From the NCBI GenBank assembly GCA_025451235.1, contig JANWKT010000024.1:1-64000 (forward strand): a stretch of DNA of 64,000 bases. The letters are read 5' to 3'. Made by a program: the position numbers and the translations under genes. The stretch's first letter is position 1. Every line of letters starts with the position of its first letter. The notes beneath the pieces were generated by a model, which saw nothing but the letters and a program-made list of their open reading frames with translations, ran no database searches and was not told the origin of the DNA. This document shows, in pieces, positions 5,254-56,380 of the stretch. Origin of the DNA: Flavobacteriales bacterium (GTDB lineage Bacteria; Bacteroidota; Bacteroidia; CAIKAF01).

Positions 5254-5376
5254 GTTTTTTTTGCAAGATAAAACCCTTTCCAATCAGAACTTGTTATTAA
5301 GAAGTTATCGATTGGATTTTGAACATAATAACATCTCAATAACTAGTCAATAACAAGATTGCACAGATGGTGACCA

Positions 5377-5384
5377 TACCTTTG
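5377..5384 (+). promoter_or_regulatory. Bacteroidota -7 box upstream of the propeller lipoprotein
   Basis: TACCTTTG matches the TAnnTTTG consensus exactly. Transcription would start near 5389, which rules out the GTG at 5384 as a start and supports the ATG at 5411. The -33 element is weak (ATTG at 5358-5361, spacing 15). Confidence 0.5.
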
Positions 5385-5410
5385 TGATACAATCAATAAA
5401 AAATATGGGT

Positions 5411-6445
5411 ATGAAAAATTTTGGAATATTATTGGCCTGCATCCTAATGGTTTCTTGCTTTGGGCAAAACAGCTCATCCTTGCTGTTTAACTATTTTAAT
5501 CGTCCGGTTGATATTATGGCTGGCTACGAATCTACACCCACAAAGGCAACAATCGTTCAACCGGGACAAGTCCTTTTTCAATCTACGGATGGAGGAACCA
5601 CCTGGCAAGATCTCAGTAAAGGATTACCGGATGATATCCAGGTAAACCAATGCTTTGCTAAAGGCAACGAGGTGTACCTTGGCACTTTTGATGGTAAAAT
5701 TTACCATAGTAGCGATGTAGAATCGGGTACATGGGATCTACAATTCGATGGGAAAGAAAGTGAGGGTGCCATTACTGGAATTTTTGAAGGAAAATCGGGT
5801 ATATATTTTAGTATTTATATGGGTGGTTTTTATAAACAAACACCTGGCACCAATACATGGAAACCCATGCATCAGAACCTGGTATCACAAAGCATTTTCT
5901 CGGTCGTAGAAACCGAGGTGGGCACCATTTGGATAGCCGGCGGCAGTGGGGTCTACAAATCCAGTGACGACTGCAAAACATGGAAACAAGTATATGCTGA
6001 AGGCTGGGTAAATAGCCTGGTGTATAAATCCAATATATTTTTAGCTAACACTGTCAACGGTTTGCTTCGCTCAGCGGATAATGGTGAGCATTGGGATTGT
6101 GTAGTACCGGACGTATTTGGTGTTCACAAAGCCATGATCATTGAAGATTATTTTGTGATCATACGTGCAGGATCTCAATCCAATTGGGCTGAGGTTTCAA
6201 TTGATGAAGGTAAGACCTGGCAATCCATGGACCCGGGTAAACCAGCAGATATCAACGTTTTTGACCTGGCAAAAGCAGGTAAGTATCTTTTTAGCTGTCG
6301 CAAAGCTGGTCTTTCAAGGTCTTCGGATATGGGAAAAACCTGGGAGCTTCTGTTATCCCCCCAAACCCAGGATGATCTTACCTTATTTGAAATGGTATCT
6401 TCTAACTCTACCCTGTTTGTGGTGGTGAAAAAAGGAGGCTGCTAA
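5411..6445 (+). CDS. Secreted BNR/YVTN-type beta-propeller lipoprotein
   Basis: A 344-residue lipoprotein: MKNFGILLACILMVSC is a signal peptide with lipobox MVSC. It carries repeated Asp-box-like motifs, STDGGTTWQDLS, SSDDCKTWKQV, SADNGEHWDCV, SIDEGKTWQSM and SSDMGKTWELL, one per blade, as in sialidase-like and photosystem-assembly-type propellers. No catalytic sialidase residues are recognisable, so I call only the fold. I chose the ATG at 5411 because of the lipobox spacing and the -7 box at 5377-5384. It is followed by a hairpin terminator at 6505. Confidence 0.75.
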   Translation: MKNFGILLACILMVSCFGQNSSSLLFNYFNRPVDIMAGYESTPTKATIVQPGQVLFQSTDGGTTWQDLSKGLPDDIQVNQCFAKGNEVYLGTFDGKIYHSSDVESGTWDLQFDGKESEGAITGIFEGKSGIYFSIYMGGFYKQTPGTNTWKPMHQNLVSQSIFSVVETEVGTIWIAGGSGVYKSSDDCKTWKQVYAEGWVNSLVYKSNIFLANTVNGLLRSADNGEHWDCVVPDVFGVHKAMIIEDYFVIIRAGSQSNWAEVSIDEGKTWQSMDPGKPADINVFDLAKAGKYLFSCRKAGLSRSSDMGKTWELLLSPQTQDDLTLFEMVSSNSTLFVVVKKGGC

Positions 6446-49416: not shown

Positions 49417-49803
49417 ATGAAATCAACCATACAAATAGCAACCTTAATAACTGTTATGATGATAGGCTTAACAGGTTGTTTCCAGGAAAATATATCAGAA
49501 ATGAATTATATAGGTCCATGGAGAATTATTCAATATTATAACCATGGTGAAAATCAAACAATGAACTATGTTCATAACCATAAGTACTATACTATCTATT
49601 TACAATCAGGCAATATTTTTAATGAAACATGGATAGAATCCGATGAGACCTATGATATCAACGGCATGTGGAAACTGGACGAAGATAAACGGCATTTGTT
49701 ATTGAATGATCGTTATAACGGTGAAAGAAAATTTGAGATCACTTATACGCATACCATTAGGATCAAAAACGGGAAGGAAGAATGGATACTTAAGAAAATA
49801 TAA
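49417..49803 (+). CDS. Lipoprotein, first of a tandem paralogous pair
   Basis: A 128-residue lipoprotein with lipobox GLTGC. The mature part is lipocalin-like: a start with IGPWRIIQYYNHGENQT, alternating strands, IFNETWIESDETYDING, and the ending RYNGERKFEITYTHTIRIKN then EEWILKKI. It is clearly related to the neighbour 23 bases downstream, which shares the same signal-peptide pattern (MKSTIQIA / MKTTIKVA), the YLQS strand, the Y(D/T)(I/V)NG(M/T)W turn and the EEW(I/H)LK end. The pair arose by tandem duplication. Function unknown. Confidence 0.7.
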   Translation: MKSTIQIATLITVMMIGLTGCFQENISEMNYIGPWRIIQYYNHGENQTMNYVHNHKYYTIYLQSGNIFNETWIESDETYDINGMWKLDEDKRHLLLNDRYNGERKFEITYTHTIRIKNGKEEWILKKI

Positions 49804-49826: not shown

Positions 49827-50216
49827 ATGAAAACAACCATCAAAGTAGCTGCATTTTTAATCATGGCTACCATGGGATTGGTGGCATGCAGGGATCATTA
49901 TAAGGAGTTTTATTCTACCGGTGAATGGAAACTCGAAAGCTATTACTATAATGGGTCGGATAATACCAGTATTTATTTACAATCACATGAGAATTACACT
50001 TTTGTGCTAAAAATTGGACATAGCTTTATCGAAACATACACAGTAAATGATTCACCCTATACGGTAAATGGCACATGGGATGTAAGCTATGATGTAACGA
50101 TACTTCGATTGTATGATGCTGTTAACGGGACCAGGGAGTACGAAATTACCCAGAGTTCTACCATAAAATTATTTTTAAAGAAAGGAATTGAAGAGTGGCA
50201 CCTGAAGAGGCCATGA
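49827..50216 (+). CDS. Lipoprotein, second of the tandem paralogous pair
   Basis: A 129-residue lipoprotein with lipobox LVAC. Its layout matches the upstream copy: STGEWKLESYYYNGSDNT, SIYLQSHENYTFVLKIGH, PYTVNGTWDV and the final IEEWHLKRP. Identity to its neighbour is low (I estimate about a third by eye), so the duplication is old and both copies have been kept. Aromatic and Asn residues alternate as in small ligand-binding barrels. The two share a transcript ending at the terminator at 50235-50269. Confidence 0.7.
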   Translation: MKTTIKVAAFLIMATMGLVACRDHYKEFYSTGEWKLESYYYNGSDNTSIYLQSHENYTFVLKIGHSFIETYTVNDSPYTVNGTWDVSYDVTILRLYDAVNGTREYEITQSSTIKLFLKKGIEEWHLKRP

Positions 50217-50292: not shown

Positions 50293-50661
50293 ATGAAAGC
50301 CCTCGAATCACTTACTTCGAAAGGATGGAAAAAAGAAAATGCAATTCCATTCAGAGAACAAATTGTAAAGGATGCCAAAGAATGTTATTCTTATTCAAAT
50401 GCTAAGAATACACAGATAGCGCTTATGCCCTTTACGGATCAGTCGGTCCTAACGATCCGTTTAGCTGGAACTCGTGGAAATAACTTCAATTATTTCCAAA
50501 TAAAGATTGATGCAACCAATGAGCAGTTAGTGGTCGATAAGATCGACTCCATCAAGGATGAAGTTGATATCAACAACTATTTCAATGTGTATTTTGGCTT
50601 ACAGGCGGTAGGAGAAGTGGCCATTATGGCCTGGGAACAGTGGGAGGTCAACTACCGATAG
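50293..50661 (+). CDS. Hypothetical small soluble protein
   Basis: A 122-residue cytoplasmic protein without signal peptide or membrane helix. It starts with a helix (ALESLTSKGWKKENAIPFR) and continues with a beta sheet (TQIALMPFTDQSVLTIRLAG, FNYFQIKIDATNEQLVVDK), ending in GLQAVGEVAIMAWEQWEVN. The mix looks like a compact alpha/beta domain. I recognise no family. It is 76 bases after the tandem lipoproteins, but the terminator between them separates the units. It is convergent with the DUF6356 gene, with no gap. Confidence 0.55.
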   Translation: MKALESLTSKGWKKENAIPFREQIVKDAKECYSYSNAKNTQIALMPFTDQSVLTIRLAGTRGNNFNYFQIKIDATNEQLVVDKIDSIKDEVDINNYFNVYFGLQAVGEVAIMAWEQWEVNYR

Positions 50662-50871
50662 TTAAGCCTCATGCTTCCGGTCTTCGATCTGATCGTTTAA
50701 ACCTTTAACGATCCGACTGGTGGTATGGGTGAACATAAATGGAAACACCGAATGAACGCTGCAGCATATAACGGCTTTCATCAGTTTAAAAACAACTGAC
50801 CAGGCGAAAATAAAATGCCCCGAGTAGGATAAACCTACTTCTTTAGGATGTTTGGTAAACGCATTACTCAT
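50662..50871 (-). CDS. DUF6356-family small membrane protein
   Basis: A 69-residue protein. It starts SNAFTKHPKEVGLSYSGHFI, followed by a membrane segment (FAWSVVFKLMKAVICCSVHS), VFPFMFTHTTSR and a charged tail. The pattern F..HP..VG.SY..H, then a helix, then H..FPF.F..T.SR matches DUF6356 as I remember it, a small family of unknown function. Its ATG overlaps the racemase gene stop by 4 bases (ATGA). It is the third gene of a coupled operon with the peptidase-methyltransferase and the racemase. Confidence 0.75.
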   Translation of the reverse strand: MSNAFTKHPKEVGLSYSGHFIFAWSVVFKLMKAVICCSVHSVFPFMFTHTTSRIVKGLNDQIEDRKHEA

Positions 50872-51599
50872 AGGTCAATTTTTTCTATATGATTAGTTTC
50901 GATCTGATACAACTTAGATAACGAATATTTCATTTGATTGGTATCTCCGCTGGTTTGCCATTGTACCAATCCATTTTCATCAGCCACATCCCAGGTCGAA
51001 AGAATCCAGTTACACATTTCTTGAGCAGGATCAAGCAAAACCGCCTGTCCGGTGAAATCAATTATTCTATTGGCAATTAATGGATAATGGGTGCATGCCA
51101 GTAATATATGTGGAATCGTTTGGATTGGCGAAAAAATAGCCTGAATATCTTCCATTAATCCATCTGAGTCAATATCTCCTGCCTCTATTCTGGCAGATAA
51201 GGGTTGCGCTATCCGCTGATACACCTGGATACCATTCGCCTCCAGCTTATTTTTATAGATCTCCGATTCTATGGTGCGCTTTCCTCCTACTATGCCCACT
51301 TCCTTGATCCCTGCTTTTAAAACCACATTGATCCCATGTTCAATAATACCGGTGATGTTTTTATCATCTCCTAGAACTGTACTTGCTGCATTACAGCCAA
51401 CAATGATCTTTTCGATACCCAACTTATTGAAATGTAGAAAAACATGGCTTAAACGGGCCTTTAATTCGTTTTCGGGCACTTTACCATAGGGGGTGAAACC
51501 CGTGTCGGAAAAATAGACCACGTTTACGTTGCTACTTTTGCGCAATAACTGGTAAATACCAACTCCCCCTATTCCCCAATCGCAAATCCCTATAGCCAT
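50868..51599 (-). CDS. Aspartate/glutamate racemase-family protein (MurI-like)
   Basis: A 243-residue cytoplasmic enzyme of the cofactor-independent two-cysteine racemase family. Both catalytic cysteines are in place: Cys69 in IIVGCNAAST and Cys169 in LLACTHYPL, with the His two residues later. FSDTGFTPYGKVPENEL matches the substrate-side motif DTxxxPYG. The N-terminal motif is CDWGIGGVG where MurI has DSGxGG: Trp replaces the conserved Ser, which could change substrate fit. It overlaps its neighbours by 1 base upstream (TAATG) and 4 downstream. It could be glutamate racemase for peptidoglycan, but the context and the Trp favour a specialised role. Confidence 0.8.
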   Translation of the reverse strand: MAIGICDWGIGGVGIYQLLRKSSNVNVVYFSDTGFTPYGKVPENELKARLSHVFLHFNKLGIEKIIVGCNAASTVLGDDKNITGIIEHGINVVLKAGIKEVGIVGGKRTIESEIYKNKLEANGIQVYQRIAQPLSARIEAGDIDSDGLMEDIQAIFSPIQTIPHILLACTHYPLIANRIIDFTGQAVLLDPAQEMCNWILSTWDVADENGLVQWQTSGDTNQMKYSLSKLYQIETNHIEKIDL

Positions 51600-52888
51600 T
51601 ATGGATAAGTTAAATAAATTTCGTTCATATTTTCAATCTTACCTGAATCGAATGCCAGCATGGTAGAATGATAACCTATATTGATCTTTTCCACATTCCT
51701 GCCAGGGAACCTACTTTCCAGATACCACTTCATTTCATGCTCCGCCCTGATAGGATTATATTTCAGCATATGTTTCCAATCCGGATCATTCACCAATTTT
51801 TTCAAATTCCTGTAAAATTTCCTGTTCGCATATCGCTGAAAAATATGTTTTACTTTATGGGCCAGAAACCTGGGTATCTCTTTCCTTTTTACAGGTACGG
51901 TTACCATGTCAATGATCAGCACCTTTCCTCCTGGTTTCAATACTCTTTTTATCTCATTCATCAATGGGTCCCAGTCCAGATACCTAAACGATAACAAAGA
52001 GGTGACCACATCGATGGAATGGTCCTCCACGGGTAAGATTGGGCCTGTTAGTTGTTTGAAATCCAGGTTCTTATTATGGGTGTTTAAAAGTCTTGCTTGA
52101 GCCAGTATATTGGCCGAAATATCTACTCCAATACCGCAATTGAGCTTTGGTGATAGTTCTTTTAACAAGGCCCCATTACCACAACCAATATCCAATAAGG
52201 TAATATCGTTCGAACCTGTTAAATGGGAAGAGATCCACTTCCACTCATCTTTTCTCACTTTGATATCCTGGAATACCTGGTCATAGAGTCTGGCAACCCT
52301 GTTATAGGTCCTGTCATCTGCAAATTCATCAGGCTTAAATGATTTCATGGTTTCCAGGGGTTCCCATCCAGCATATTTTTTAAATGAGCCGATCCATCCA
52401 TGTGATTTCTTTCCTTTACATCCAACCGCATAAACGGGTCCGTTTTCAGTTTTTACTTGACGAAACCTGTTTTTGTTGGAAGTAACTGTGGTATACCAAT
52501 AATAGCCAAATGATTCCACTCCATGGTTTTTGGCAAAAAAAGCAGCAAACCATCGCGCCGATCGGCAACAATGAAAATAAGCCTTTGCATTGGGTGCAAA
52601 AGGGATCTCCAGGTTTTTTATCTCATAGGGACTAAATTGTTCCGGATATTGACGTGTACCATACATGGGACCATACATTCCTGAGTGGCCTACAAAATGG
52701 TATTCATTGATTTGTTTTTGGCCGTTTTTCAAACCCAGAAAGATCTCCACCAATTCCTTCTTATGCAAAATACCGTGGCAAATCACTTCTTTACCTGCCT
52801 CATTGAATTCAGCTTCAAGTGTCTTGGCAGCCCTTGCAAACATATCGCTACCTTCACGGTATTGAGTAGTATAGATAATGAGGATCAA
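51599..52888 (-). CDS. Caspase/CHAT-like domain fused to a SAM methyltransferase
   Basis: A 429-residue fusion. Residues ~1-180 resemble a caspase-like (CHAT) cysteine peptidase fold: strand MILIIYT, a long helix, strand EYHFVGHSGMYGP with His68 as the candidate base, then AYFHCCRSARWFAAFF with Cys107/Cys108 as the candidate nucleophile. Residues ~190-340 are a Methyltransf_11 domain: motif I LLDIGCGNGALL, acid in GVDIS, IDVVTSLLSFRYLDWD, and RVLKPGGKVLIIDMV. The last ~90 residues are a helical family-specific cap. The start codon is TTG at 52886-52888, supported by a promoter at 52914-52947; no upstream ATG exists. It heads a coupled three-gene operon. Confidence 0.7.
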   Translation of the reverse strand: MILIIYTTQYREGSDMFARAAKTLEAEFNEAGKEVICHGILHKKELVEIFLGLKNGQKQINEYHFVGHSGMYGPMYGTRQYPEQFSPYEIKNLEIPFAPNAKAYFHCCRSARWFAAFFAKNHGVESFGYYWYTTVTSNKNRFRQVKTENGPVYAVGCKGKKSHGWIGSFKKYAGWEPLETMKSFKPDEFADDRTYNRVARLYDQVFQDIKVRKDEWKWISSHLTGSNDITLLDIGCGNGALLKELSPKLNCGIGVDISANILAQARLLNTHNKNLDFKQLTGPILPVEDHSIDVVTSLLSFRYLDWDPLMNEIKRVLKPGGKVLIIDMVTVPVKRKEIPRFLAHKVKHIFQRYANRKFYRNLKKLVNDPDWKHMLKYNPIRAEHEMKWYLESRFPGRNVEKINIGYHSTMLAFDSGKIENMNEIYLTYP

Positions 52889-52913: not shown

Positions 52914-52947
52914 CAAAATTACCAAAATAGAAAAAGCCTTTTGCAAA
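52914..52947 (-). promoter_or_regulatory. Promoter of the peptidase-methyltransferase operon
   Basis: Minus strand: TTTG (52944-52947), 22 bases, TAATTTTG (52914-52921), the latter exact. The -33 box falls in the loop of the preceding terminator. The start point near 52909 gives a leader of about 20 bases to the TTG start codon. Confidence 0.55.
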
Positions 52948-52970
52948 AAATCATGCAAAAGGCTTTTTCT
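52929..52970 (-). terminator. Strong terminator of the large T9SS gene
   Basis: A perfect 17-bp inverted repeat: arm 52929-52945 (core AAAAAGCCTTTTGCA) and arm 52954-52970, separated by 8 bases. It is symmetric with poly-T on both sides, so it works in either direction; the gene at 52984 ends 13 bases upstream of it. Confidence 0.88.
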
Positions 52971-52983
52971 TGAAAGCTATTCA

Positions 52984-55011
52984 TTATTGTTTAACAAACT
53001 TGCCAACCGCAAATATATTTCCGTTTTGAATTAACTGATAAGTATAAATACCGGAGCTCAAGGCTTCCACGTTTAGTTGAAGGTTATCCAAATTCATTTG
53101 ATAAGGAACCGCTATGTTTTTACCTGCAACATCTGTTAGTTGAAGATATACAGGATCATTGGAAACTGCGTAGATAAATTGGATGTTTACGATCGACTCG
53201 GCAGGGTTTGGGAAAACAATGGCATTGTTTAACAACCAATTTTCGATGCTGAAATTATTGATCACTACACAAGCACTTGTATCCAAACAGCCGGCAAAGT
53301 TCAGCTGAACGGCATAAGATCCATTGGCCGGTGCCATAAAGTTCTGAGCAGTTGCTCCCGGAATAACTGCATAACTATTGTTGCAATCCAACCACTGGTA
53401 GGTAGCTCCGGCCTGATTGGCGGTAATGGTAATTCCAACAACCGAAGTGCTGTTATCTAATCCCGGAGGAGTGATATGCACTTTAAAGGCCGCATCCTGG
53501 TTGCTGTTTTCGCGGTATTCCGACCATGATCCATCCAAAATTTCATACGTATTTCTTGAAATAGGTGCGGCGGTTTCCAGACCCAGAAAAATATTCGGCC
53601 CAGCCTGGAAAAAGACCACATAAAATCCACCTGAATCGATTTGAACCGGAGTTAAAAGATCTACTGAATTCCATGATGCTGTAATTACAGAGGCTCCCGG
53701 AACTACAGTACTCGACAAAATGGTTCCTGGGGCACCAAATGGAGCATCATTGGCAAAAATGGTGGCAGTATAACCATCTCCTAAAGCATTTTGAACAAAG
53801 AACTCCAATGAATCTATGAGGATTGGATAAACCGGGGGCTTATAGAACACCCCAATCCCATCGTCATTGCCTATTCCCGAATTCCAGCTTACCTGCTGAT
53901 CTGGCAAGTTGGGTGTATGATAGGTAAATACGGTAGGCGAACATGCATTGATCACTTCTATTTCCGATAACTTGATATTATTAGCCGGATTGATATCAGT
54001 GGCGCAGTTAGTAGATACCTGATAAGAATATTGACCAGGTACCGTGAGATAAGCTGGAAGAAAATTTACGATGGTAAAAGCACCTGTATTGAGGGAAGCG
54101 AGTGTATCATTGTCCTGATGCAACAATACAAAAGCAAGGTCTCTCACCTGAGCATTGATGGCAATAGGTGAACTAATGGTAGCATTTCCAACATTTTTTA
54201 TGTTCGTAGCAAGTGAAATAGAACCTGCAGGCACGATCACTCCTTTGCTACCCACATTTTGGTTCCAGAAGGGCGTTGCATCGGGTACTTGCAAGGTAAC
54301 CACCGGTGGATAATAAAATTTTATCGCATAATTGGCAGGGGGAACAAGATCGACATAACATTGCAAACCAATATTGCCGGTAAGGTTCTCGATCCCAATC
54401 ACAAGATCATTGCAGCCTGCAATATCATTTAGCGTATTTAAGGTTTGATACTGGAAAGTAATAGAGCTGTCTGATCCACATAAAATGATCTGGAATGTGG
54501 TAGTTCCAGCTGTATAGTTGGGCGCAGCCGCCATCCAATGCGGAACGTTGCTGTATTGAACAATAAATGAATCGGTAAAATTCGTCCAGTAAAAAGCCTG
54601 CGCAGGATTACCTCCTCCAAAAAAAGTGAGATCGGTCATAAAAGCGGCCAGGATATTATCGGCAGGTCCCCCAGCTGTTGGGAGAGAAGGAAAACAAGAA
54701 GCAATATTACTTGGATTATCAAAACTTACCCAACCATTCGATCCTACTTTTACCTTGGTGTAATCACTCCAATAATAATGGAAATTAAAGCCAATATTGT
54801 ATTGCATCGGTGCACTATTATCATCTGCAAGACCGGTAATGGGTAGGCCAATTGTTGAAATATCGATCCAGTTATAAACGGGTCCTCCCGGCTCATTGCT
54901 GTCTTTCCAGACATAGCCGTAAGCATCAGGACCACCTGAAAGCGCAAATAATGGAGTAAAAGAAATAAGCCCTGTAAATACAAAGAGTGTAAATAGTTTT
55001 TTCATTTTCAT
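52984..55011 (-). CDS. Large secreted protein with T9SS sorting domain
   Basis: A 675-residue secreted protein with signal peptide ending PLFALS. The N-terminal ~250 residues show the GYVWKDSNEPGGPVYNWIDI start and QYSNVPHWMAAAPNY, NDLVIGIENLTGN motifs of a Bacteroidota 'choice-of-anchor' beta-jelly domain. CARDB-like Ig domains follow (ATNIKNVGNATISSPIAIN, NTGAFTIVNFLPAYLTVPG). Near 530-600 is a PKD/SprB-like domain (ANQAGATYQWLDCNNSY, GSYAVQLNFAGCLDTSACV). The C-terminus is a type A sorting domain (AIVFPNPAESIVNIQF, QLNVEALSSGIYTYQL). No enzymatic motif is seen. It is divergent from the thioesterase gene. The -7 box TATATTTG (minus strand) lies at 55025-55032. Confidence 0.85.
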   Translation of the reverse strand: MKMKKLFTLFVFTGLISFTPLFALSGGPDAYGYVWKDSNEPGGPVYNWIDISTIGLPITGLADDNSAPMQYNIGFNFHYYWSDYTKVKVGSNGWVSFDNPSNIASCFPSLPTAGGPADNILAAFMTDLTFFGGGNPAQAFYWTNFTDSFIVQYSNVPHWMAAAPNYTAGTTTFQIILCGSDSSITFQYQTLNTLNDIAGCNDLVIGIENLTGNIGLQCYVDLVPPANYAIKFYYPPVVTLQVPDATPFWNQNVGSKGVIVPAGSISLATNIKNVGNATISSPIAINAQVRDLAFVLLHQDNDTLASLNTGAFTIVNFLPAYLTVPGQYSYQVSTNCATDINPANNIKLSEIEVINACSPTVFTYHTPNLPDQQVSWNSGIGNDDGIGVFYKPPVYPILIDSLEFFVQNALGDGYTATIFANDAPFGAPGTILSSTVVPGASVITASWNSVDLLTPVQIDSGGFYVVFFQAGPNIFLGLETAAPISRNTYEILDGSWSEYRENSNQDAAFKVHITPPGLDNSTSVVGITITANQAGATYQWLDCNNSYAVIPGATAQNFMAPANGSYAVQLNFAGCLDTSACVVINNFSIENWLLNNAIVFPNPAESIVNIQFIYAVSNDPVYLQLTDVAGKNIAVPYQMNLDNLQLNVEALSSGIYTYQLIQNGNIFAVGKFVKQ

Positions 55012-55621: not shown

Positions 55622-56380
55622 ATGAAAACTACAGCAAGAAAAAAAAATAAACCTTCCTCAAGAGTAGCTCAACGTAGCACTAAATCATCAGTTAAAGCAA
55701 CGAAAACCAGACAAAGAACCAAAAAAGCCAGTCCAAAAAAGGAAAAACCAGATGAAGATAAATTCAAGGAGTTATTTAATGACCTGTTAAAAGATACTTT
55801 GAATGCCGAAAAACAATTGGTAAGAGCATTGCCAAAAATGGTAAAGGCGGCCACATCAAAACAACTGGCCAGTGCCTTTAAAAAACATCTTTCCGAAACC
55901 GAGAAGCAAGTAAGCCGTCTTGAAAAAGTTTTTTCCGTTTGCGGATTTAAGGTAGTTGGTAAAAAATGTGAAGCCATGGAAGGTTTGGTGAAGGAGGGAG
56001 AAGAGGCCATCAAAGAAACTACTCAAGGCTCTTTTGTCCGTGATGTAGCATTAATTGTAGCTGCCCAAAAAGTGGAACATTATGAAATGGCAGCATATGG
56101 CTCACTCCGTTCAATAGCAGAAACCCTTGGATATTCCAAAGCGGTTGATCTATTGCAAAAAACCCTTGATGAAGAAGGGGCTGCCGATAAAGCGTTAACA
56201 GAATTATCAGCGTCCATCAATGCAAAAGCAGCGGGTACAACAGGTAGCAAGGTTCAGGCAAGTGCATCCGATCAGGAGGAAGAAGAGGAGGAACCCATTG
56301 AAGAGGCTGTATATTTAGATGCAGATGAAGAAGAAGAAGGTGACCAAAGATCCGACAGGAACATGGGCAATTCGCTGTAA
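55622..56380 (+). CDS. YciE/DUF892 ferritin-like protein with basic N- and acidic C-tails
   Basis: A 252-residue protein. Residues ~45-205 are a DUF892 (YciE/YciF) four-helix ferritin-like domain: KFKELFNDLLKDTLNAEKQL, then LPKMVKAATSKQLASAFKKH, AEKQL and ETEKQ acidic sites, KVEHYEMAAYGSLRSIAETL and LLQKTLDEEGAADKALTEL. The ~45-residue N-terminus is histone-H1-like (KPSSRVAQRSTKSSVKATK, many Lys/Arg). The last ~35 residues are acidic (SDQEEEEEEPIEEAVYL). The core is thought to bind metals and belong to stress responses; the tails suggest DNA contact and self-regulation. Possible promoters: TAAATTTG at 55563-55570 or 55600-55607. Confidence 0.82.
   Translation: MKTTARKKNKPSSRVAQRSTKSSVKATKTRQRTKKASPKKEKPDEDKFKELFNDLLKDTLNAEKQLVRALPKMVKAATSKQLASAFKKHLSETEKQVSRLEKVFSVCGFKVVGKKCEAMEGLVKEGEEAIKETTQGSFVRDVALIVAAQKVEHYEMAAYGSLRSIAETLGYSKAVDLLQKTLDEEGAADKALTELSASINAKAAGTTGSKVQASASDQEEEEEEPIEEAVYLDADEEEEGDQRSDRNMGNSL

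Follow-up and report, generated by a model that had tools for sequence, protein, structure and literature searches.

Composition and inheritance of the module

Two adjoining genes of a Flavobacteriales bacterium, one coding for a predicted caspase-like domain fused to an S-adenosylmethionine (SAM) methyltransferase and one coding for a relative of the glutamate racemase MurI, form a real module: the two occur in a fixed pairing and have been inherited together. They were analyzed in a stretch of 64,000 nucleotides (assembly GCA_025451235.1, contig JANWKT010000024.1, positions 1 to 64,000), here referred to as the window. The fusion is named open reading frame (ORF) 1 and the racemase ORF2, and both are followed by ORF3, a small gene of the DUF6356 family. 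The explanation that we favour for the module is a tentative one, held with somewhat less than even confidence: the methyltransferase, the racemase and a caspase-like Cys-His enzyme that recognizes acids may act on a common acidic amino-acid or peptide substrate.

The module is common to two distant bacterial groups, the Bacteroidota and the phylum of locus L005, which is probably the Myxococcota in GTDB terms. Within the Bacteroidota, relatives were found in L004, a metagenome-assembled genome of the Flavobacteriales (77% identity), and in L008/L091 from the same family as the window (64% identity). The loci L005 and L006, labelled Deltaproteobacteria, showed 50-51% identity. The N-terminal domain of ORF1 is rare: it was found in 2 of 247 genomes from the class to which the window belongs, in 1 of 395 from the sample of its phylum and in 3 of 16 from its family. 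In the phylum of L005 the full-length fusion was carried by 22 of 379 sampled genomes; a 23rd genome (G917) had the C-terminal part of the fusion only, cut at the contig end and with the racemase adjoining. In total, 26 full-length relatives of ORF1 were aligned.

Two further matches to the N-terminal profile were seen. The one in G974 (E 1.8e-4) was dismissed as a low-complexity, probably non-coding reading, and the one in G899 was weak (E 7.5e-4; 49 residues in a frame of 82 residues). Viral contigs gave 30 pattern matches with no relative among them. On plasmids the generic methyltransferase part alone matched, and no site covered 80% of ORF1.

At all 25 alignable loci, counting those long enough to judge, the racemase gene is located on the same strand as the fusion and starts at -4 to +93 nucleotides relative to the methyltransferase stop. 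The 379 genomes comprised 22 with fusion and racemase, one with the fusion only, none with only a racemase carrying the motif DWG described below, and 356 with neither. When the same genomes were searched for the racemase, 25 were above threshold and 22 of these carried the fusion. The matches in G750, G837 and G847 were counted as ordinary MurI. The motif DSG was directly seen in G750 and G847; G837, for which the motif scan gave no match, scores like these two (128 bits) and groups with both in the tree. Locus L089 ends at a contig edge, and a module-type racemase is located at the edge of another contig.

A maximum-likelihood tree placed the 24 module racemases in one clade, apart from six ordinary MurI (support 100/100). 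The pairwise distances of fusion and racemase were correlated with r 0.84, a value that was reached in 0 of 2000 Mantel permutations. The racemases of the Bacteroidota group with L006 and L075 in this tree and are thereby nested among those of the other phylum (94/91, slightly under the strict support level). Such a nested position suggests that the module was horizontally transferred between the Bacteroidota and the phylum of L005.

An earlier note on this DNA, made from the sequence alone, had described three overlapping minus-strand genes, and their positions (Table 1) as well as the overlaps were confirmed. ORF1 and ORF2 have 1 base in common (TAATG) and ORF2 and ORF3 have 4 bases in common (ATGA). 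In L004 and L008/L091 the same start of ORF1, the same fusion and both overlaps are kept as well. A hairpin upstream of ORF1 marks the 5' limit of the unit.

Table 1. Positions of the module genes and of their predicted domains and residues in the window
Feature	Positions	Strand	Description	Basis
ORF1	51599-52888	minus	429 amino acids, TTG start; predicted caspase-like domain fused to SAM methyltransferase	
ORF1, residues 1-185	52334-52888	minus	predicted caspase-like N-terminal domain	AlphaFold2, Foldseek, hhalign to Peptidase_C14 and DUF4347
Arg11 codon	52856-52858	minus	predicted S1 Arg in the b1-a1 loop	invariant 26/26; topological place of caspase-3 Arg64
His68 codon	52685-52687	minus	predicted catalytic His just after b3	invariant 26/26; aligned to the C14 and DUF4347 His
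Cys108 codon	52565-52567	minus	predicted catalytic Cys just after b4	invariant 26/26; aligned to DACHAG (C14) and YGCNVG (DUF4347)
ORF1, residues 186-429	51602-52333	minus	class I SAM methyltransferase domain	invariant C-terminal part NPxRxxHE..W...SRF
ORF2	50868-51599	minus	243 amino acids; MurI-like racemase	
ORF3	50662-50871	minus	69 amino acids; small protein of the DUF6356 family, a single hydrophobic stretch	Pfam and hydropathy
Terminator-like hairpin	52929-52970	minus	17 pairs, between ORF1 and its upstream gene	

The N-terminal domain of ORF1

The N-terminal domain was modelled with AlphaFold2 from four sequences. The mean predicted local distance difference test score (pLDDT) was 74, and the blocks that make up residues 1-130 reached 72-96. 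Strands (b) and helices (a) follow each other in the order b1 (2-7), a1 (14-30), b2 (35-40), a2 (43-55) and b3 (60-66), and then a hairpin (73-77, 82-84), a3 (87-92), b4 (97-106) and a4 (111-122). In the model b1-b4 and a1-a3 thus have the order of the caspase core (clan CD), and the small b-section that caspases have between b3 and a3 is seen as well. The sheet order was read off the Foldseek match, and the secondary structure was compared with a published description (PMC4357240).

The top nine Foldseek matches in the PDB were CED-3, the caspases 3, 4, 7 and 8, and MALT1, and caspases or MALT1 accounted for 28 of the 50 best; flavodoxin and azoreductase folds were found among the lower ranks. 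This result is suggestive rather than conclusive. The earlier note had suspected a caspase- or CHAT-like peptidase in residues 1-185; the caspase-like fold is supported by the model. For CHAT (PF12770) and gingipain C25, with which no profile comparison was made, there was neither a Pfam match nor an entry among the 50 best PDB matches.

Comparison of profiles with hhalign gave P 0.002 (probability 14%) for bacterial Peptidase_C14 and P 0.0017 (probability 16%) for DUF4347, the slightly better of two weak matches; unrelated decoy profiles gave P 0.37-0.49. The value for Peptidase_C14 depends on the choice of columns and was 0.011 with columns set by the first sequence. In the extended alignments His68 and Cys108 were both superposed on the corresponding residues of C14 and DUF4347. 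The Pfam searches missed the cut-offs for both families, since none of the 26 members matched Peptidase_C14 (PF00656) at E 5 and two of them matched DUF4347 (PF14252) with a best E of 0.11.

The motifs FVGHSG (His68) and FHCCRSA (Cys107/108), put forward earlier as a candidate His-Cys dyad, were confirmed in ORF1. His68 and Cys108 are conserved in all 26 relatives; Cys107 has to be dropped from the proposal, as the position is occupied by A in 19, C in 4, S in 2 and T in 1 of them. In total, 30 columns are invariant, among others those of His64, Arg11, Arg109, Arg112 and Gln84, and His106 is kept in 25 of 26. Such invariance fits any enzyme, and it is the position of the residues that points to caspases. 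Clan CD enzymes have the His of their dyad where b3 ends and the Cys where b4 ends (PMC4357240). In the model, H68 follows the strand 60-66 and C108 follows the strand 97-106, a placement that agrees with this dyad.

A similar comparison is possible for the specificity residues. Arg64 of caspase-3, located behind b1 where a1 begins, reads the P1 Asp, and the arginine-specific relatives carry an Asp at this position (PMC4626109). In the N-terminal domain the b1-a1 loop holds an invariant Y10-R11-x-G13. Gln184 of caspase-7, two residues before the catalytic Cys, makes a side-chain contact (PMC4357240), and its position is matched by His106, two residues before Cys108. With Arg11 and His106 at caspase specificity positions, a basic S1 site selecting an acidic substrate or P1 residue is predicted from the topology. 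Judged by the model, a caspase topology of the domain is well supported: the statistics are weak to moderate, and the catalytic residues as well as those for specificity lie exactly where caspases have them.

The methyltransferase part of ORF1

That the N-terminal domain is fused to a methyltransferase, as supposed earlier, was confirmed by the 26 full-length relatives and by a match to Methyltransf_11 in residues 232-325 (1.2e-18; 68 bits, cut-off 21.2 bits). The GxGxG motif for SAM binding is present as LDIGCGNGAL. Methyltransferases of the UbiE, phosphoethanolamine and sterol C-24 type have the SAM-binding core in common with ORF1, but lack its own invariant C-terminal NPxRxxHE..W...SRF and the N-terminal caspase-like domain.

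The racemase ORF2

ORF2 belongs to the Asp_Glu_race family (PF01177), for which it reached 37.5 bits (cut-off 31). It remained below the cut-offs of the MurI equivalog TIGR00067 (84 bits against 146.65; six relatives 80-124 bits) and of the cysteate racemase CuyB (NF052483; 29.2 bits against 190). In ORF2 the residues D7-W8-G9, C69, E139 and C169-T170-H171 were found. C69 and C169 are invariant among the module racemases, W stands for S8 (Y in the case of L007), and the Thr after CN is replaced by Ala in most members, so that DWG and CNAAS stand where ordinary MurI has DSG and CNTAS. The earlier description of a racemase with both Cys but with DWG for DSG is therefore correct, and the enzymes concerned form a divergent clade.

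In MurI of H. pylori, D7, S8, C70 and T72 deprotonate D-glutamate and E150, C181, T182 and H183 deprotonate L-glutamate (PMC6927343). Compared with this full set, the module racemases keep the D, both Cys, the Glu, the Thr and the His, and carry W for S8 and A for T72. One half of the active site of ORF2 is thus intact and the D-glutamate-deprotonating half altered, which hints at a substrate of greater size or other shape, or at a preference for one direction.

ORF2 shares with MurI and PF01177 the family-level homology, D7, the catalytic Cys, the Glu and the T-H after the second Cys; it differs in the replaced S8 and CNTA Thr, in its score below the equivalog cut-off and in its separate clade. 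The organism of the window has an ordinary MurI of its own elsewhere (L038; DSG, CNTAS). In 8 of the 10 genomes searched the family has, besides the module racemase, another member with a score like that of ordinary MurI, so ORF2 is not the housekeeping MurI. On the same contig, about 52 kb from the module, a third gene of the Asp/Glu racemase family was seen (G000:C24:103352-103999, L037; 149.7 bits to PF01177).

The fungal epimerase OpaE is an enzyme of the Asp/Glu family that acts on peptide derivatives (PMC12661438). It provides a precedent for a racemase-family enzyme with a larger amino-acid derivative as substrate, in a pathway with a methylation step (PMC12661438). However, OpaE belongs to the allantoin-hydantoin racemase subfamily and to a fungal non-ribosomal peptide pathway, and no caspase-like enzyme takes part (PMC12661438).

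Proposed function and alternatives

In the mechanism that we propose, the N-terminal domain of ORF1 would be a new and divergent caspase-like Cys-His enzyme of the clan CD type. Arg11, as the basic S1 site, would pick out a substrate by its acidic side chain; the carbonyl next to this chain would then be the target of Cys108, with release or transfer of the acyl group. The fused methyltransferase would methylate the same substrate or product. ORF2, as a relative of glutamate racemase reshaped in one half of its active site, would invert the alpha carbon; the steps may follow in this order. The common substrate may be acidic, either a free amino acid or a residue within a peptide or amide (Asp or Glu; at loci with the cupin gene described below also an isostere of Asp, for example cysteine sulfinate). 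It is possible, if rather doubtful, that these enzymes make up an undescribed and horizontally shared pathway in which a caspase-type acid-specific hydrolase or acyl-transferase that forms part of a methyltransferase acts with a racemase to make or degrade a methylated metabolite of acidic amino-acid or peptide type.

If this is true, a caspase fold would have been recruited to a small bounded metabolic module with methylation and stereoinversion, and not to regulated proteolysis. An uncatalogued branch of caspase-like enzymes and a new branch of glutamate racemases would be added. Users of MurI annotations risk confusing the module racemases with the housekeeping cell-wall enzyme. The two-gene core, the invariant residues and the substrate hint make the module directly testable.

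Several results weigh against this proposal. In residues 1-191 of ORF1 no Pfam family was recognized, the N-terminal sequence profile found nothing significant in the PDB, and PADLOC gave no family match for the domain. The best Foldseek match (E 0.0034, template modelling score 0.43) is under the usual thresholds. Residues 131-170 of the N-terminal model are of low confidence with no p10-like strands visible there, and the AlphaFold model of full-length ORF1 was set aside with a pLDDT of 50. In the known families of clan CD a Gly adjoins the catalytic His (PMC4357240); here the invariant Gly is found at +2 (H68-S/A69-G70), and G67 is not invariant. The genes further out vary between loci, and apart from the pair and, at eight loci, a cupin gene, neither a peptide substrate nor a biosynthetic neighbourhood was seen to be conserved. 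Finally, G947 (L087) carries the fusion without a racemase of the module kind, either adjoining or anywhere in the genome. In this genome the search also found no recognizable MurI, which may be due to genome incompleteness or to another route to D-glutamate. At the locus itself (G947:C6:304975-317493) the fusion is followed by a YARHG-domain gene.

Caspases and orthocaspases often process themselves, and in all 26 full-length members the caspase-like domain is located N-terminal to the second enzyme. ORF1 could accordingly be a self-regulated enzyme, in which a caspase-like processing or sensing protease cleaves itself or a partner and activates the methyltransferase, while the D-amino acid formed by the racemase has nothing to do with it. 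We consider this unlikely. The 30 invariant columns across the presumed active site are more like those of a metabolic enzyme than of a broad processing protease, and for an unrelated racemase the observed co-inheritance with the fusion would be needless. The sensing role that the earlier note had considered is not supported.

A second alternative, in sulfur amino-acid metabolism, is a narrower form of our own proposal and is based on the cupin. At eight non-Bacteroidota loci a small cupin gene of the cysteine-dioxygenase type is located directly upstream of the module; they include every locus outside the Bacteroidota in the two racemase clades that lie around and next to the Bacteroidota copies. 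In the cupin HDH is invariant and a third His lies upstream of it, a site in common with cysteine dioxygenase type I. Among solved structures a bacterial cysteine dioxygenase is closest to it, and it scored 26-37 bits with CDO_I (PF05995; cut-off 23) in the four of eight loci that were scored. In this alternative the cupin would make a sulfinate, as an isostere of Asp, and the racemase and the fusion would then handle it. This narrower form is improbable in our view, together with the history that goes with it, namely a cupin step in the L005/L006 lineage and acquisition of the pair without cupin by the Bacteroidota. The cupin scores are weak, with some of the proteins also touching the WbuC cupin family, and ORF2 reaches about 30 bits with the cysteate racemase model, far from its cut-off. 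Moreover, no cupin gene was found in the window or beside the remaining loci, hence it is not part of the core.

Just as improbable is a Rossmann-like N-terminal domain that is only superficially similar to caspases, binds the substrate without catalysis and leaves an ordinary pair of methyltransferase and racemase. The weak Foldseek and profile statistics and the lower-ranked flavodoxin and azoreductase folds would fit this explanation. It is opposed by the exact location of the invariant His where b3 ends and of the invariant Cys where b4 ends, the invariant Arg in loop L1, the b-hairpin between b3 and a3, and the superposition of both catalytic residues in two independent profile alignments. 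Caspase-like proteins also take part in bacterial defence and cell death, but an anti-phage or cell-death module with a caspase-like effector is very improbable here, given that PADLOC gave no meaningful match, that no defence genes were recognized beside the examined loci, that viral contigs gave no match and that the metabolic partner is strictly kept.

DUF6356 as an accessory of the Bacteroidota

ORF3 matched DUF6356 (PF19883) with 76.6 bits (cut-off 24.4). In the class of the window this family was found in 2 of 295 genomes, adjoining the module both times, and it is present in the genome of L004 too; it was not found in the genomes of L005 and L006 or in the related one of L007. DUF6356 is thus an accessory of the Bacteroidota and not core, and the conserved unit in the other phylum consists of two genes. 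A conserved context of three genes, as expected by the earlier note, exists in the Bacteroidota, and elsewhere it is reduced to the pair. The idea of a membrane-tied module likewise applies to the Bacteroidota variant at most, where DUF6356 probably ties or exports part of the module at the membrane. On three plasmids DUF6356 genes had unrelated neighbours and no link to the module. In the literature the family was found only in one genome-comparison paper.

Relation to known systems

As far as the model shows, ORF1 resembles caspases (C14A) and orthocaspases or metacaspases (C14B) in the order of secondary structure, the His at b3 and the Cys at b4, the hairpin between b3 and a3 and the Arg in L1. 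An Arg follows the catalytic Cys in both, HxCR in ORF1 being the counterpart of the caspase motif QACRG. In contrast to caspases, ORF1 has no sequence-family match, carries HSG for HG, is fused to a methyltransferase and shows no p10-like strands in its low-confidence part. A survey from 2012 covered 112 architectures of prokaryotic caspase homologs, and its text holds no words beginning with "transferase" or "racemase" (PMC3501461).

The DUF4347 pattern SHGxxG...YGCxxA is in register with GHSGMYG...HxCRSA of ORF1, whereas most DUF4347 matches lie in far larger open frames of up to thousands of residues. At DUF4347 loci (L164, L167 and others) the conserved SHG..G and YGC resemble a dyad of the caspase type. 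From this pattern, DUF4347 may itself be caspase-like; no paper linking it to caspases was found.

No description of a combination of caspase-like enzyme, methyltransferase and racemase was found in the literature searched, which included few subscription journals, in line with what had been stated before. Each enzyme type is already known; the combination appears to be new, with a possible new pathway behind it.

Neighbouring genes

Directly upstream of the module a gene is located (52984-55011) whose large product is secreted and probably has a sorting domain at its C-terminus. As it is present in L004 but not in L091, it is not part of the module. On the other side, a plus-strand gene (50293-50661) converges on the module and ends directly at the stop of the DUF6356 gene, and a homologue was found at the same place in L004 (4818-5183). 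Beyond it there are two similar small lipoprotein-like genes in tandem (49417-49803 and 49827-50216), a relative of which is located by the L004 module too (5324-5716). A gene at 55622-56380 codes for a ferritin-like protein of YciE/DUF892 appearance with an N-terminal tail rich in Lys and Arg and an acidic C-terminal tail.

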